This document shows positions 6,008-59,164 of a DNA stretch of 64,000 bases, piece after piece. Under the pieces are notes generated by a model. It ran no database searches. It worked only from the letters and a program-made list of their open reading frames with translations, and was not told the DNA's origin. Every line of letters starts with the position of its first letter. Positions within the stretch are counted from its first letter, which is position 1. Position numbers and translations under genes: made by a program. The DNA comes from Acetobacter nitrogenifigens DSM 23921 = NBRC 105050 (GTDB lineage Bacteria > Pseudomonadota > Alphaproteobacteria > Acetobacterales > Acetobacteraceae). The stretch lies in assembly GCF_000429165.1 (NCBI RefSeq), contig NZ_AUBI01000001.1, forward strand, positions 248,001 through 312,000, read 5' to 3'.

Positions 6008-6071
6008 AGCTGTGATTCTCCTTCGAAGTTAGACTCCCATGAACTATATGCCGCCATCTTTCGATATGGCG

Positions 6072-6085
6072 TCACGAAGTCGTGA
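6072..6085. promoter_or_regulatory. Palindrome upstream of pqqA
   Basis: TCACGA-AG-TCGTGA is a perfect 6-base inverted repeat centred about 70 bases upstream of the pqqA ATG, in the divergent pqqA/pepP intergenic region. A TATAGT hexamer lies between it and pqqA. The spacing suits an upstream activator or repressor site, but no regulator can be named. Confidence 0.35.
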
Positions 6086-6253
6086 ACCCTATCGAATACC
6101 GCTGTCCCGCCTTCAACGACACGCAACGCTCTCGGCGACAAGACGACCGCTTGTGGCGCATCGCCACGCCTCTCCCCCTTGTTCTAAGGTCTTGTCACGG
6201 GGCGCCTCCGCGCCCGACTCTCGTTTTGCCGCACCAGGAGTTGACCTGCCGCC

Positions 6254-8059
6254 ATGCCCGACGCTTCACCGGCCCGAACAACCGAACTCGCCCGTCGGCT
6301 CGCCGCATTGCGAGCCCTTATTGCCGAGGAGGGGCTCGACGGGCTGATCGTCCCAAGAAGCGACGAGTATCTGGGAGAATACGTGCCTGCCAGCGCCGAG
6401 CGCCTGGCGTGGATCAGCGGGTTTACCGGCAGCGCCGGAGTTGCGGCGATTCTGACGGATCGCGCCGCCGTTTTTTCTGATGGCCGCTACATCACCCAGA
6501 TGGATGAAGAGGTGGACGCCTCCTTGTGGGAAAAGCGGCACATCACGGAGACCCCGCCCCGCGAGTGGCTGTCCTCCCGGACTCAATCCGAGGTGCAGAC
6601 GCGGATAGGATATGATCCGCGCGTGATGAGCCGCGCCGCGCGCGACGCCTTGCAAAGCAGCCGCATCGAACTCGTCCCCACGTCCCGCAACCTGATCGAC
6701 GCTATCTGGTCCGACCGCCCGGCGGAACCGCTCTCGCCCGCCATTATCCAGTCGCTGGAATTCTCCGGAGTGGGCAGCGCCGAAAAGCGATCCGAACTGG
6801 CTGAGGCGCTTGCCGCCTCGGGGCACGATGTCACTGTCGTCAGCGACACGACATCTATTGCGTGGCTGCTCAACATCCGTGGCGCCGACGTGCCCAGCAC
6901 GCCCGTAACCCTTAGCACCGCGTTGCTTCACCGGGACGGACGGGTCGACCTGTTCATCGACGAGCGGAAGATCAGCCCGGAAATTCGACAGTGGCTTGGC
7001 AACGAGGTCGCCATCCGTGCACCGAATGAAATGGCCGAAGCGTTGTCCGGGCTATCCGGCAAGACGGTCGCTCTCGATCCCGCAGGAACGCCCGTCTGGT
7101 TCGAACAGACCCTCGCCGCGGCCGGAGCCAAAACTGTCGACGTTACCGACCCATGCGCACTGCCGCGTGCGCGCAAAAATCGAATCGAACAGCAAGGCGC
7201 ACGGACGGCGCACCTCCGCGACGCCGTGGCGGTCTGTCGTTTCCTTTATTGGCTCAAAAGCTCCGCCGTTGGCTCCACCGAGCTGGACGCCGCCGCCCGC
7301 CTGCAGGCTTTCCGCGCAGAAGCCCCGGAATATCGCGACGATTCTTTCACCGCGATCTCCGGCGTGGGGCCGAACGGCGCGATCATGCATTACCGGGTGA
7401 CGCCGGAGTCCAGTCGACCAATCGGCGCGGACATGGTCTATTTGATAGACAGCGGCGGACAGTATCCCGACGGCACGACCGACATCACGCGCACGGTCTG
7501 GACCGGCCCGAACGAGCCGCCAGCGGAGATCAAATCCTGCTTTACCCGCGTTCTGAAGGGTAACCTGCTGCTGGCGCGCGCCGTATTCCCTGTCGGAACC
7601 ACGGGACATGCGCTCGATTCGCTTGCGCGCTACGCATTGTGGCAGGCCAGACTCGATTTCGACCATGGAACCGGTCATGGCGTCGGCAGCTACCTTTCGG
7701 TTCACGAAGGACCACAGAGAATCGCAAAGGCGCCTAACGCCATCGCGCTGGCCCCGGGCATGATCGTCTCCAACGAGCCCGGATATTACCGGCCCGGCGC
7801 CTTCGGGATCAGACTCGAGACCCTGCTTCTGGTCTGCGAACCGGAGATCGGTCCGGACGGCAAAGCCTTTCTCTCATTCGAAACACTGACCCTCGCGCCC
7901 TTTGATCAGCGTCTGATCGACATCGACGTTCTTGGTGAGGAAGACGCCCGGATTCTCGACACGTATCACGCTCACGTCCTCGCGAGCGTTGGGCCGCTTC
8001 TACCGTCCGACGAGCGCTCGTGGCTCGCGCATGCCTGCTCCCCCATCAAGAGGAAGTGA
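6254..8059 (+). CDS. pepP: Xaa-Pro aminopeptidase (M24B)
   Basis: A 601-residue cytoplasmic metallopeptidase that removes an N-terminal residue preceding proline. It has the three-domain build (two creatinase-like N-terminal domains plus a C-terminal pita-bread domain) of the longer, eukaryote-like type, not the roughly 440-residue E. coli PepP. Metal ligands are visible: DSGGQYPDGTTDITRT (two Asp), FDHGTGHGVG (His), MIVSNEPGYY (Glu) and GIRLETL (Glu). The ATG at 6254 follows an AGGAG-type ribosome-binding site. It is divergent from pqqA. Confidence 0.92.
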   Translation: MPDASPARTTELARRLAALRALIAEEGLDGLIVPRSDEYLGEYVPASAERLAWISGFTGSAGVAAILTDRAAVFSDGRYITQMDEEVDASLWEKRHITETPPREWLSSRTQSEVQTRIGYDPRVMSRAARDALQSSRIELVPTSRNLIDAIWSDRPAEPLSPAIIQSLEFSGVGSAEKRSELAEALAASGHDVTVVSDTTSIAWLLNIRGADVPSTPVTLSTALLHRDGRVDLFIDERKISPEIRQWLGNEVAIRAPNEMAEALSGLSGKTVALDPAGTPVWFEQTLAAAGAKTVDVTDPCALPRARKNRIEQQGARTAHLRDAVAVCRFLYWLKSSAVGSTELDAAARLQAFRAEAPEYRDDSFTAISGVGPNGAIMHYRVTPESSRPIGADMVYLIDSGGQYPDGTTDITRTVWTGPNEPPAEIKSCFTRVLKGNLLLARAVFPVGTTGHALDSLARYALWQARLDFDHGTGHGVGSYLSVHEGPQRIAKAPNAIALAPGMIVSNEPGYYRPGAFGIRLETLLLVCEPEIGPDGKAFLSFETLTLAPFDQRLIDIDVLGEEDARILDTYHAHVLASVGPLLPSDERSWLAHACSPIKRK

Positions 8060-11574: not shown

Positions 11575-12978
11575 ATGAGACTCGCCGCCCGACTTCGCTC
11601 CCCCCTCCTCCGCCGTTACGTTCTGGCGCGGAGACCTTCGAATCAGGGTCCATCAGACCTGAACTTTTCCTGCCGCAACGGTAAAAGTCACGTCGATCTG
11701 GACCAGAGCGCCCTGGCGCGAATCTCGCCGCCTCGCCGCGATCGATGCAGAAGCATCCCGGCTAAAGTCACTACGCACACGAACAACTGGTCTCCGATCA
11801 AGTGGCTTTCGAGCCTGTGGCTGCCTGACACGCGCTCACGGGCGTTTCCCTCTCCGGACGCCTTGGCGCTACTCGCCAGCGCCGCAGTAGCCGCACTGGC
11901 GCCGACAGACCTCCATGCCGTGCCTATGCCAACTGCGCCCGAGGCCTCAGCAGCAGACCTCACACCTATTTTTACCTCCAGCACCCAGCTTTGGGACGCG
12001 GTAGTCGCTCTGCCCGATGGCCGCGTGGCGTTGCAGGCTCCACGTTGGCTCGGCGGAAACGGCCCGCAACTCAGTATCGCCCGCGAGAGCGAAGCGCCCG
12101 CAGCGTATCCGAACGCTTTATGGAACGCCGTTGACGGTCCCGTGGAAGAACATTTCGTGGCTCTGACCGGCATAACGCTCGCGCCGGACGAACACCTGTG
12201 GGCAGTGGACAGCGGCGTTCCCGATCGCGAAAAGCCGCCAAGCGCCGGCGCGCGCCTGATCGACATCGACACGCGCAGCGACAGCGTGACGCGCGTGTTG
12301 TCCATCGACCCCGCCGTGCTGCGCCCAGGCAGCATCCTCGGCGGCATCGCTATCCACGGACGGACGGCCTACGTGCTCGACTCCGGCGTCGCCGGTCTTC
12401 TCGTCATCGATCTGGGAAGCGGCGTCGCGCAGCGTTTCATGGACCATCACCCTGCGCTGACTGCAGGGCGGCCGATTCAGGCGAAGGACGGCGTAGTCGC
12501 GGCGCCGGACGGGCGCCCTATCGCCATCGACGCGAGCCTTATCGCCATCAGCCCCGATGGAAAATGGCTCTATGTTCAAGCCTATTGCGGACCGCTCTAT
12601 CGCGTGAACACCGCATTGCTCGACGATCCTGCGTCCACTGGAGCAGCGTTTCAGGAAGCGGCGACGCTTTGGTACAAAACCGGCGCTCTCGGCGGACTGG
12701 CGGTTGGCCGCGACGGAACCCTCTACTGGTCAGATACCGGCACAGGCAGCGTCGACAGCTACACGGCCGGCCGCATCCCGCATCACCTGATCACCGACCC
12801 TCGCCTGACATGGCCGGGCGGCCTTGCGCTCGCGCCCGATGGCCGCCTCCTTGTCCCGGCGGCGCAGCTCGATCGCGCCGCTCGCTTTCACCAGGGACAC
12901 TCGACAATCGTGTGGCCGGAAACAGTGTACGCTCTTCGCACCCCGGCGGACGCGACCTCCGACATCCTGCGTAAATAG
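11575..12978 (+). CDS. Exported major-royal-jelly/yellow-like beta-propeller protein
   Basis: Up to 467 residues. From about residue 125 it is a six-bladed propeller-like sequence with MRJP/yellow or SMP-30 features: LTGITLAPDEHLWAVDSG, GGIAIHGRTAYVLDSG, DASLIAISPDGKWLYVQ, GGLAVGRDGTLYWSDT and WPGGLALAPDGRLLVP. A hydrophobic stretch (DALALLASAAVAALAP) precedes the propeller and looks like an export signal. The preceding roughly 90 residues are Arg-rich and unlike a protein, so the true start is uncertain. The ATG at 11575 is used, with a TTG at 11566 also possible. The substrate is unknown; a lactonase-type activity is possible. Confidence 0.7.
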   Translation: MRLAARLRSPLLRRYVLARRPSNQGPSDLNFSCRNGKSHVDLDQSALARISPPRRDRCRSIPAKVTTHTNNWSPIKWLSSLWLPDTRSRAFPSPDALALLASAAVAALAPTDLHAVPMPTAPEASAADLTPIFTSSTQLWDAVVALPDGRVALQAPRWLGGNGPQLSIARESEAPAAYPNALWNAVDGPVEEHFVALTGITLAPDEHLWAVDSGVPDREKPPSAGARLIDIDTRSDSVTRVLSIDPAVLRPGSILGGIAIHGRTAYVLDSGVAGLLVIDLGSGVAQRFMDHHPALTAGRPIQAKDGVVAAPDGRPIAIDASLIAISPDGKWLYVQAYCGPLYRVNTALLDDPASTGAAFQEAATLWYKTGALGGLAVGRDGTLYWSDTGTGSVDSYTAGRIPHHLITDPRLTWPGGLALAPDGRLLVPAAQLDRAARFHQGHSTIVWPETVYALRTPADATSDILRK

Positions 12979-58857: not shown

Positions 58858-59164
58858 GTCCGCGTAGCTCAGCAGGATAGAGCACAGGATTCCTATTGAA
58901 TTGGGCGTCGCGAGGGGAAACCACGCGGCGGAATCGCTCAAATTCGGGGAACGCTTGACCCTCTCGGGTTGTGCCGATCCCGAGCCAAGCCCGACTCTCT
59001 GAGACGGGAAGGTGTAGAGACTGGACGGGCGACGCCTAAAGGCTTCACGGTCTACGGCGAAGGGACAGTCCAGACCACGAACGCGGGGCCTGCGCCACGC
59101 GGCGGCGAAAGCCGAAGTGGTATGAATCCTGGGGCCGTGGGTTCGAATCCCGCCGCGGACACCA
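58858..59164 (+). tRNA. tRNA-Arg(CCT) interrupted by a group I intron
   Basis: The two exons (58858-58894 and 59125-59164) join into a complete cloverleaf. Acceptor GTCCGCG pairs with CGCGGAC. The D-arm is GCTC/GAGC. Anticodon stem CAGGA/TCCTG encloses the loop TTCCTAA with anticodon CCT. The variable loop has 5 bases. T-arm GTGGG/CCCGC encloses TTCGAAT. Discriminator A and an encoded CCA follow. The interruption falls directly after anticodon base 36. The tRNA reads AGG codons and depends on splicing of the intron to be functional. Confidence 0.95.
58895..59124 (+). ncRNA. Self-splicing group I intron (IC3-like) in the tRNA-Arg anticodon loop
   Basis: 230 nt between U36 and A37, ending in the terminal G expected of group I introns. 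The guide GGG can pair with the exon triplet CCU (terminal U-G pair). P2 is CGTCGCG / CGCGGCG capped by a GGGGAAACCA-type loop. Core elements are visible: CCGAGCCAAGC (about 58980), AGAGACTGGACGG (59016-59028) and GACAGTCCAG (59064-59073). They match the well-studied Azoarcus tRNA-Ile intron and the Agrobacterium tRNA-Arg(CCU) intron class. No homing endonuclease is encoded. Splicing is inferred, not shown. Confidence 0.93.

Follow-up and report, generated by a model that had tools for sequence, protein, structure and literature searches.

The window examined here, a 64-kb stretch of the Acetobacter nitrogenifigens genome, contains a tRNA-Arg(CCU) gene whose anticodon loop is interrupted by a group I intron. 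When introns are allowed, ARAGORN calls exactly one gene in the window, tRNA-Arg(cct) at 58858-59164, with the insertion at ttcct|aatcc, between U36 and A37; run without introns, it reports no tRNA in the 64 kb. As a control, 50 random 64-kb sequences with the dinucleotide frequencies of the window yielded one intron-aware call in total. The joined exons (77 nt) take a regular tRNA fold with an encoded CCA. The coordinates, the 230-nt length and the insertion site after U36 given in a preliminary description of this DNA are thereby confirmed. The features of the locus are as follows.

58858-59164 (+): tRNA-Arg(CCU) gene with group I intron and encoded CCA end (ARAGORN with introns)
58858-58894 (+): 5' exon, last bases ...TTCCT (U36); the joined exons fold as tRNA-Arg(CCU)
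58895-59124 (+): group I intron, 230 nt (RF00028, 35.9 bits; 36-sequence alignment and pair counts)
58900-58902 (+): guide AUU, P10 partner of the 3' exon AAU at 59125-59127 (36/36 sequences)
58903-58905 (+): internal guide GGG, forming P1 with exon CCU at 58892-58894, U.G at the splice site (36/36 sequences)
58907-58929 (+): P2 hairpin with GGAAAC loop (compensatory changes in 5/8 pairs)
58934-59032 (+): P3 (58934-58939 with 59027-59032), with P4, P5 and P6 inside (pair counts)
59017-59071 (+): P7 (59017-59023 with 59066-59071), the guanosine site, with P8 between its strands (P7 paired in 36/36)
59075-59120 (+): P9 (59075-59078 with 59117-59120) with two side hairpins, one GAAA-looped (alignment and pair counts)
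59124 (+): terminal G of the intron (G in 36/36 sequences)
59125-59164 (+): 3' exon (ARAGORN with introns; joined-exon fold)

The guide AUUGGG is complementary to CCU|AAU, so that P1 and P10 span the exon junction. The insertion directly after CCU, the U.G pair of P1 together with the terminal G, and the P3-P8 core with its P7 are all features of the tRNA-Arg(CCU) intron family, the subgroup of which we take to be IC3, the label used in the tRNA-intron literature. Of these parts, the guide GGG, hairpin P2, both strands of P7 and the final G of the intron had been proposed earlier and are as described there. The two longest open stretches within the intron (76 and 75 codons) match no Pfam family, so that nothing points to a homing endonuclease gene.

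Rfam finds nothing at this locus at the gathering score. In E-value mode, with 801 bases searched, RF00028 matches at 58882-59087 with 35.9 bits and E = 2.1e-7, the gathering score being 50; judged by that curated threshold, the covariance check set out in the preliminary description formally goes against the intron. In a control on 20 loci, however, none of the 19 other Arg, Lys or Thr intron loci reached this cut-off, and the tRNA-Leu(UAA) locus alone passed. Since all 19 also fall below it, the RF00028 cut-off is strict for introns in these three tRNAs, and reaching it does not define membership of the family. The folding energy is likewise unremarkable (z = -1.2; 13 of 100 shuffles fold equally well or better) and does not by itself set the locus apart, so the evidence for the intron is comparative. 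A P1-P10 structure drawn by hand on one row of an alignment of 36 copies from the genus is paired in 92.9% of 2375 cells, as against 30.4-43.5% when the partners are moved by 1-3 columns. The covariation score of the alignment is 0.290, versus 0.144 for shuffled data; a further measure, the number of further pair types, does not exceed the shuffles. Relatedness among the rows can inflate the shuffle test, and is retained in the slide control. P1, P10, P6, P7 and P9 are invariant across the 36 species-level copies, with compensatory changes in P2, P3, P5, P6a, P8 and the side hairpins of P9. In a set of 17 cores from introns in tRNA-Arg, -Lys, -Thr and -Leu the paired fraction is 96.3%, and five of the six P3 pairs and the last P7 pair have changed on both sides.

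The intron is near universal in Acetobacter. A DNA search of 61 genomes (this one and 60 others) matched the locus in 36 of 37 members of the genus, and a core covariance model, trained with the window intron included, found a match in 48 of 49 genus genomes and in 49 of 385 genomes sampled evenly across the class. The exception in the DNA search, G015, is a 1.5-Mb congener (96% complete) with 39 tRNA matches, in which neither an intron core nor a tRNA-Arg(CCU) was found. In four genomes of other families tRNA-Arg(CCU) has no intron, and its anticodon arm is identical to that of the joined exons. The pgk gene, confirmed by a domain match to PGK, adjoins the intron-bearing gene in only 11 of 30 loci, and unbroken descent in place is therefore unsupported. 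In one congener (G021:C1:2229869-2229914, locus L087) a 46-base exact copy comprises the end of the Arg intron and most of the 3' exon, without CCA; it lies far from the tRNA gene and looks like an old attachment-site scar. Another genome (L085, G047:C24) has an uninterrupted tRNA-Arg(CCU) and, about 0.8 kb away, a degenerate tRNA-Arg-like copy whose loop reads TTCTTAA.

Two cores occur in eight of the 49 genus genomes, the second being, when typed by P1/P10 pairing, in a tRNA-Lys in six and a tRNA-Thr in two. Elsewhere in the class the apparent hosts, typed partly by hand, include tRNA-Thr(GGU), tRNA-Thr(CGU), tRNA-Lys(CUU) and perhaps tRNA-Leu(CAA) (L122, L126-L128; L138, L140; L101, L112, L115; L132, L144). 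Typing scored P1/P10 pairing, a simpler procedure without pairing having given many false isotypes; 8 of 64 rows stayed untyped, and L142 and L143, cut by contig ends, were excluded. For implausible or tied typings either the second reading or that of the simpler procedure was chosen by hand (among others L080, L097, L099, L102, L118-L121, L131, L135 and L140).

No second tRNA-Arg(CCT) is present among the 43 tRNA matches of the A. nitrogenifigens genome (a 51-contig draft, 99.91% complete), and the only high-identity matches to the 77-nt joined tRNA in this genome are the two exons of the locus. The preliminary description saw here a ribozyme controlling an essential or rare-codon tRNA. AGG is indeed rare: 33 long ORFs of the window, chosen mechanically, contain 58 AGG among 16,458 codons. 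The tRNA-Arg(UCU) that ARAGORN finds in the same genome should read AGG by wobble; because this tRNA is present, and because G015 shows no tRNA-Arg(CCU), the term essential is unsupported. As to control, we found nothing in its favour and no sign of regulation.

Taken as a whole, these data leave us close to certain that the insert is an intron of the Arg(CCU) family between U36 and A37, one that would be spliced out and would be a mostly inherited, near-neutral element. This explanation draws on the observed anatomy, the conservation in the genus, the covariation and the intronless relatives with the joined anticodon arm. From group I chemistry, the guide AUUGGG would pair with CCU in the transcript to form P1, and a guanosine bound at P7 would cut after the U of the P1 U.G pair. 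With the AAU of the 3' exon held by the guide through P10, the freed 5' exon would attack after the terminal G, joining the exons to a normal tRNA and releasing the intron. The window intron is predicted to be self-splicing; it has probably been inherited mostly with the genus, as a near-neutral passenger. That the gene is a tRNA-Arg(CCU) with a group I intron in its anticodon loop and without an endonuclease gene, as proposed at the outset, is supported by the comparative tests together with a published relative that is spliced.

The same genome contains a second group I intron (L074, G000:C8:23673-23958, minus strand), inside the anticodon of tRNA-Lys(UUU) at CTTT|TAA. A query with the joined tRNA-Lys(UUU) gives, at high identity, only the two separate halves, both here and in five congeners that bear the same intron; five other congeners tested have an uninterrupted tRNA-Lys(UUU) at 97-99% identity. 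The sole uninterrupted lysine tRNA among the 43 matches is tRNA-Lys(CUU). AAA codons are read by tRNA-Lys(UUU), and since no intact copy was detected in this draft assembly, AAA decoding should depend on splicing by the ribozyme; the tRNA is probably indispensable. When named genomes were scanned by pattern for Lys introns, 42 stretches were returned, of which 36 have a strong core, three a weak one (18-21 bits) and three none; the strong cores include records from Acetobacteraceae, Sphingomonas, Tistrella, Skermanella, Neomegalonema, Magnetospirillum, Gammaproteobacteria and Acidobacteriota.

A tree of the cores (140 columns; 88 hand-chosen rows, 10 of them drawn from the 36 Arg rows in alignment A1), in which the bootstrap had not settled and long branches were flagged, groups the introns by host tRNA, with 16 changes for 8 labels versus 52.6 when shuffled. 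Forty Lys and four Thr rows fall together (44 rows, support 96/96), one further Lys row (L139) is placed elsewhere, and 16 Arg rows from Acetobacter and other genera stand apart (98/98). The Thr(UGU) introns of Acetobacter group with the Acetobacteraceae Lys(UUU) introns (support 99/83), at a node where long branches were flagged as meeting. Given the separation of the Lys/Thr rows from the Arg rows, a move of the Arg intron into tRNA-Lys inside the A. nitrogenifigens genome was considered and is not favoured.

The two Acetobacter Thr introns lie in a prophage. In genomes G006 and G065 the intron interrupts a tRNA-Thr(UGU) at CTT|GTAA (L191 9955-10245, with the junction piece at 11715-11732; also L192 and L203). 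In G006 this gene has an integrase gene on either side, genes for spanin and baseplate proteins further along, and cysS adjacent; the G065 stretch is about 90-92% identical over most of its length. In G001 an intact tRNA-Thr(UGU) adjoins cysS. The host tRNA-Thr(UGU) of G006 and G065 is in two pieces on different contigs, ...ACCGCCTTGTAA|element and element|CTTGTAAGCGGT..., the two junctions share the 7-base loop core CTTGTAA, and an integrase gene adjoins one of them. A sequence pattern, which would miss genes outside it, finds no other uninterrupted tRNA-Thr(UGU) in either genome; a further match, on G006:C11, was judged by eye not to be a tRNA. The element thus splits the host gene within its anticodon loop and brings a copy of its own, with an intron placed within the same 7 bases. 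As in tRNA-dependent lysogeny, a short integrase core lies inside the host tRNA, which is not rebuilt. That no other uninterrupted copy matches the pattern is consistent with the prophage tRNA being required for lysogeny.

The prophage intron, used as query, matched 26 records, among them Gordonia phage Daredevil, where the match is next to the integrase gene. At 1340-1651 of the Daredevil stretch L329 (NC_048021.1) intron-aware ARAGORN finds a tRNA-Lys(UUU) with a 238-nt intron, and no gene by default. An uninterrupted copy of 16 of the 17 bases that make up the anticodon arm after splicing, CGGACTTTTAATCCGC, lies about 150 bases from the tRNA on the integrase side and is presumably attP. In the printed description of the phage, as far as it was available, Daredevil encodes no such tRNA and forms clear plaques; the plaques may be evidence against a functional tRNA-Lys or may have another cause. 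The IMG/VR contig L236 has the same order: a tRNA-Lys(CUU) with an intron (6025-6311, minus), a possible core ACTCTTAA, and an integrase gene (6618-7784, plus). By our own estimate about 0.01 matches of this kind, 8 bases long, would be expected in the gap, though several words were looked at.

Three loci thus fit a function for such introns that we put forward tentatively, namely that they can shield a tRNA gene against integrases. A temperate phage that destroys its host tRNA at the anticodon loop would carry the integrase core twice, once in the replacement tRNA. A self-splicing intron within that core would remove it from the DNA and restore it in the RNA, and so would hide the phage tRNA from the phage's own integrase. 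The loci are the Acetobacter prophage of G006 and G065 (tRNA-Thr(UGU), core CTTGTAA, intron CTT|GTAA), Daredevil (tRNA-Lys(UUU), likely attP CGGACTTTTAATCCGC, intron CGGACTT|TTAATCCGC) and L236 (tRNA-Lys(CUU), intron ACTCT|TAA, with ACTCTTAA as the possible core in the gap that separates the tRNA from the integrase). Introns in chromosomal tRNA genes, such as that of the window, could protect the host gene likewise. If true, this would be a benefit for introns usually regarded as selfish, and one that is testable in phage-host pairs.

For the window intron itself, retention as a protection of the anticodon loop, a common integrase target, from phages and islands is the least improbable of the alternatives, and an unlikely one. 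The genus is under attack of this kind, a prophage having split an intronless tRNA-Thr(UGU) in the anticodon loop in two congeners, and the Arg intron is present in 48 of 49 genus genomes; such retention is also expected, however, from descent with rare exact loss. No integrase aimed at the loop of tRNA-Arg(CCU) came to light in this analysis, and the 46-base copy in G021 hints that the Arg gene can still be targeted through its 3' end. A reading of the intron as dead, in a tRNA pseudogene, with AGG left to tRNA-Arg(UCU) alone, is very improbable. The presence of that tRNA and the lack of a detected tRNA-Arg(CCU) in G015 would suit such a state, but a dead element would lose the invariant P1, P10, P7, P6 and P9 and the compensatory changes of the other helices seen in the 36 copies, and the tRNA body is intact. 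Removal by a protein endonuclease, as for archaeal and eukaryotic tRNA introns, can practically be dismissed: the insert is in the anticodon loop, one base off the canonical site, but it has a group I core and guide pairing, and archaeal-type introns are short and need another motif and an enzyme not known from bacteria.

Related cores occur in many viral contigs. The core pattern matches at least 119 IMG/VR stretches, and the core covariance model confirmed the core in all 80 tested of these (L207-L286); it also marks one in Agrobacterium phage Atu_ph07 (L328). Of 73 rows typed (the 71 strongest of the 80, the nine weakest being dropped, and two phage records), 50 were assigned to a tRNA, 36 of them to tRNA-Leu(UAA), and 23 stayed untyped; isotypes called once are unsure. 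A crude motif search flagged an integrase near one of 50 viral loci; it is insensitive, leaving unflagged L329, whose integrase gene runs off the end of the stretch. With so few integrases nearby by this crude count, the proposed shield need not explain most phage tRNA introns. PHROGs identified one integrase (L236) and two homing-endonuclease-like proteins (L261 and L271) among ten hand-picked neighbouring ORFs. An exact second copy of the ligated 11-base loop region occurs in two of 50 loci (L329 and L285; 0.2 expected), and that of L285, which has no known integrase, may be due to chance. Among plasmids, 1272 of 72,556 records match the query at 60-90% identity, none over more than 80% of its length. 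Both of the records looked at, pCTX-M3 (NC_004464.2; L326 2523-2660, core score 142.8 bits) and L327, have a group I intron, unannotated, next to an aac(3)-IId resistance module.

By itself the window locus is ordinary, and its value is one of annotation: as had been suspected of standard tRNA scans, an existing tRNA is missed by default ARAGORN and by RF00005, and its intron by the Rfam cut-off. Default scanners likewise leave intron-bearing genes out of the tRNA counts for phages, which bears on the published statement about Daredevil. The wider interest lies in the anticodon-splitting Lys intron of this genome and in the phage cases, which are testable and for which the literature searched, in part, holds no report. 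In that literature, covered mostly through titles, abstracts and passages, we found no group I intron described for tRNA-Lys or tRNA-Thr of proteobacteria, nor for any phage tRNA. A passage of PMC6784885 mentions introns of unclear type in tRNAs of Lak megaphages, including tRNA-Thr(TGT), and a 2014 review, in the part available, places all phage introns then known in protein genes (PMC3984707).

The window intron is real, was correctly read, and belongs to a family that is already known, including in Acetobacter. A table footnote in PMC4596401 records one tRNA-Arg split by a group-I-like sequence in several acetic acid bacteria, naming Asaia bogorensis, Acetobacter pasteurianus, Gluconobacter oxydans, a Komagataeibacter and Gluconacetobacter diazotrophicus. 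Passages of PMC7717549, which cites Reinhold-Hurek and Shub (1992) and Paquin, Heinfling and Shub (1999), describe the tRNA-Arg(CCU) intron family and report that its Bartonella member, BbgpI, self-splices. As far as those passages describe the alphaproteobacterial tRNA-Arg(CCU) introns of Agrobacterium and Bartonella, the window intron shares with them the host tRNA, the site next to CCU, the guide, the core, the small size and the lack of an endonuclease gene, and differs in species only. With the tRNA-Leu(UAA) intron, aligned here as L079, it has in common the core, P7, the GAAA-loop hairpins and the U.G at the 5' splice site, whereas host tRNA and site are different, the Leu(UAA) site being after U34. 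The arrangement of the G006 and G065 prophage is what PMC10865867, in the passages available, calls tRNA-dependent lysogeny; unlike the cases described there, the prophage tRNA is interrupted within the core by a group I intron.
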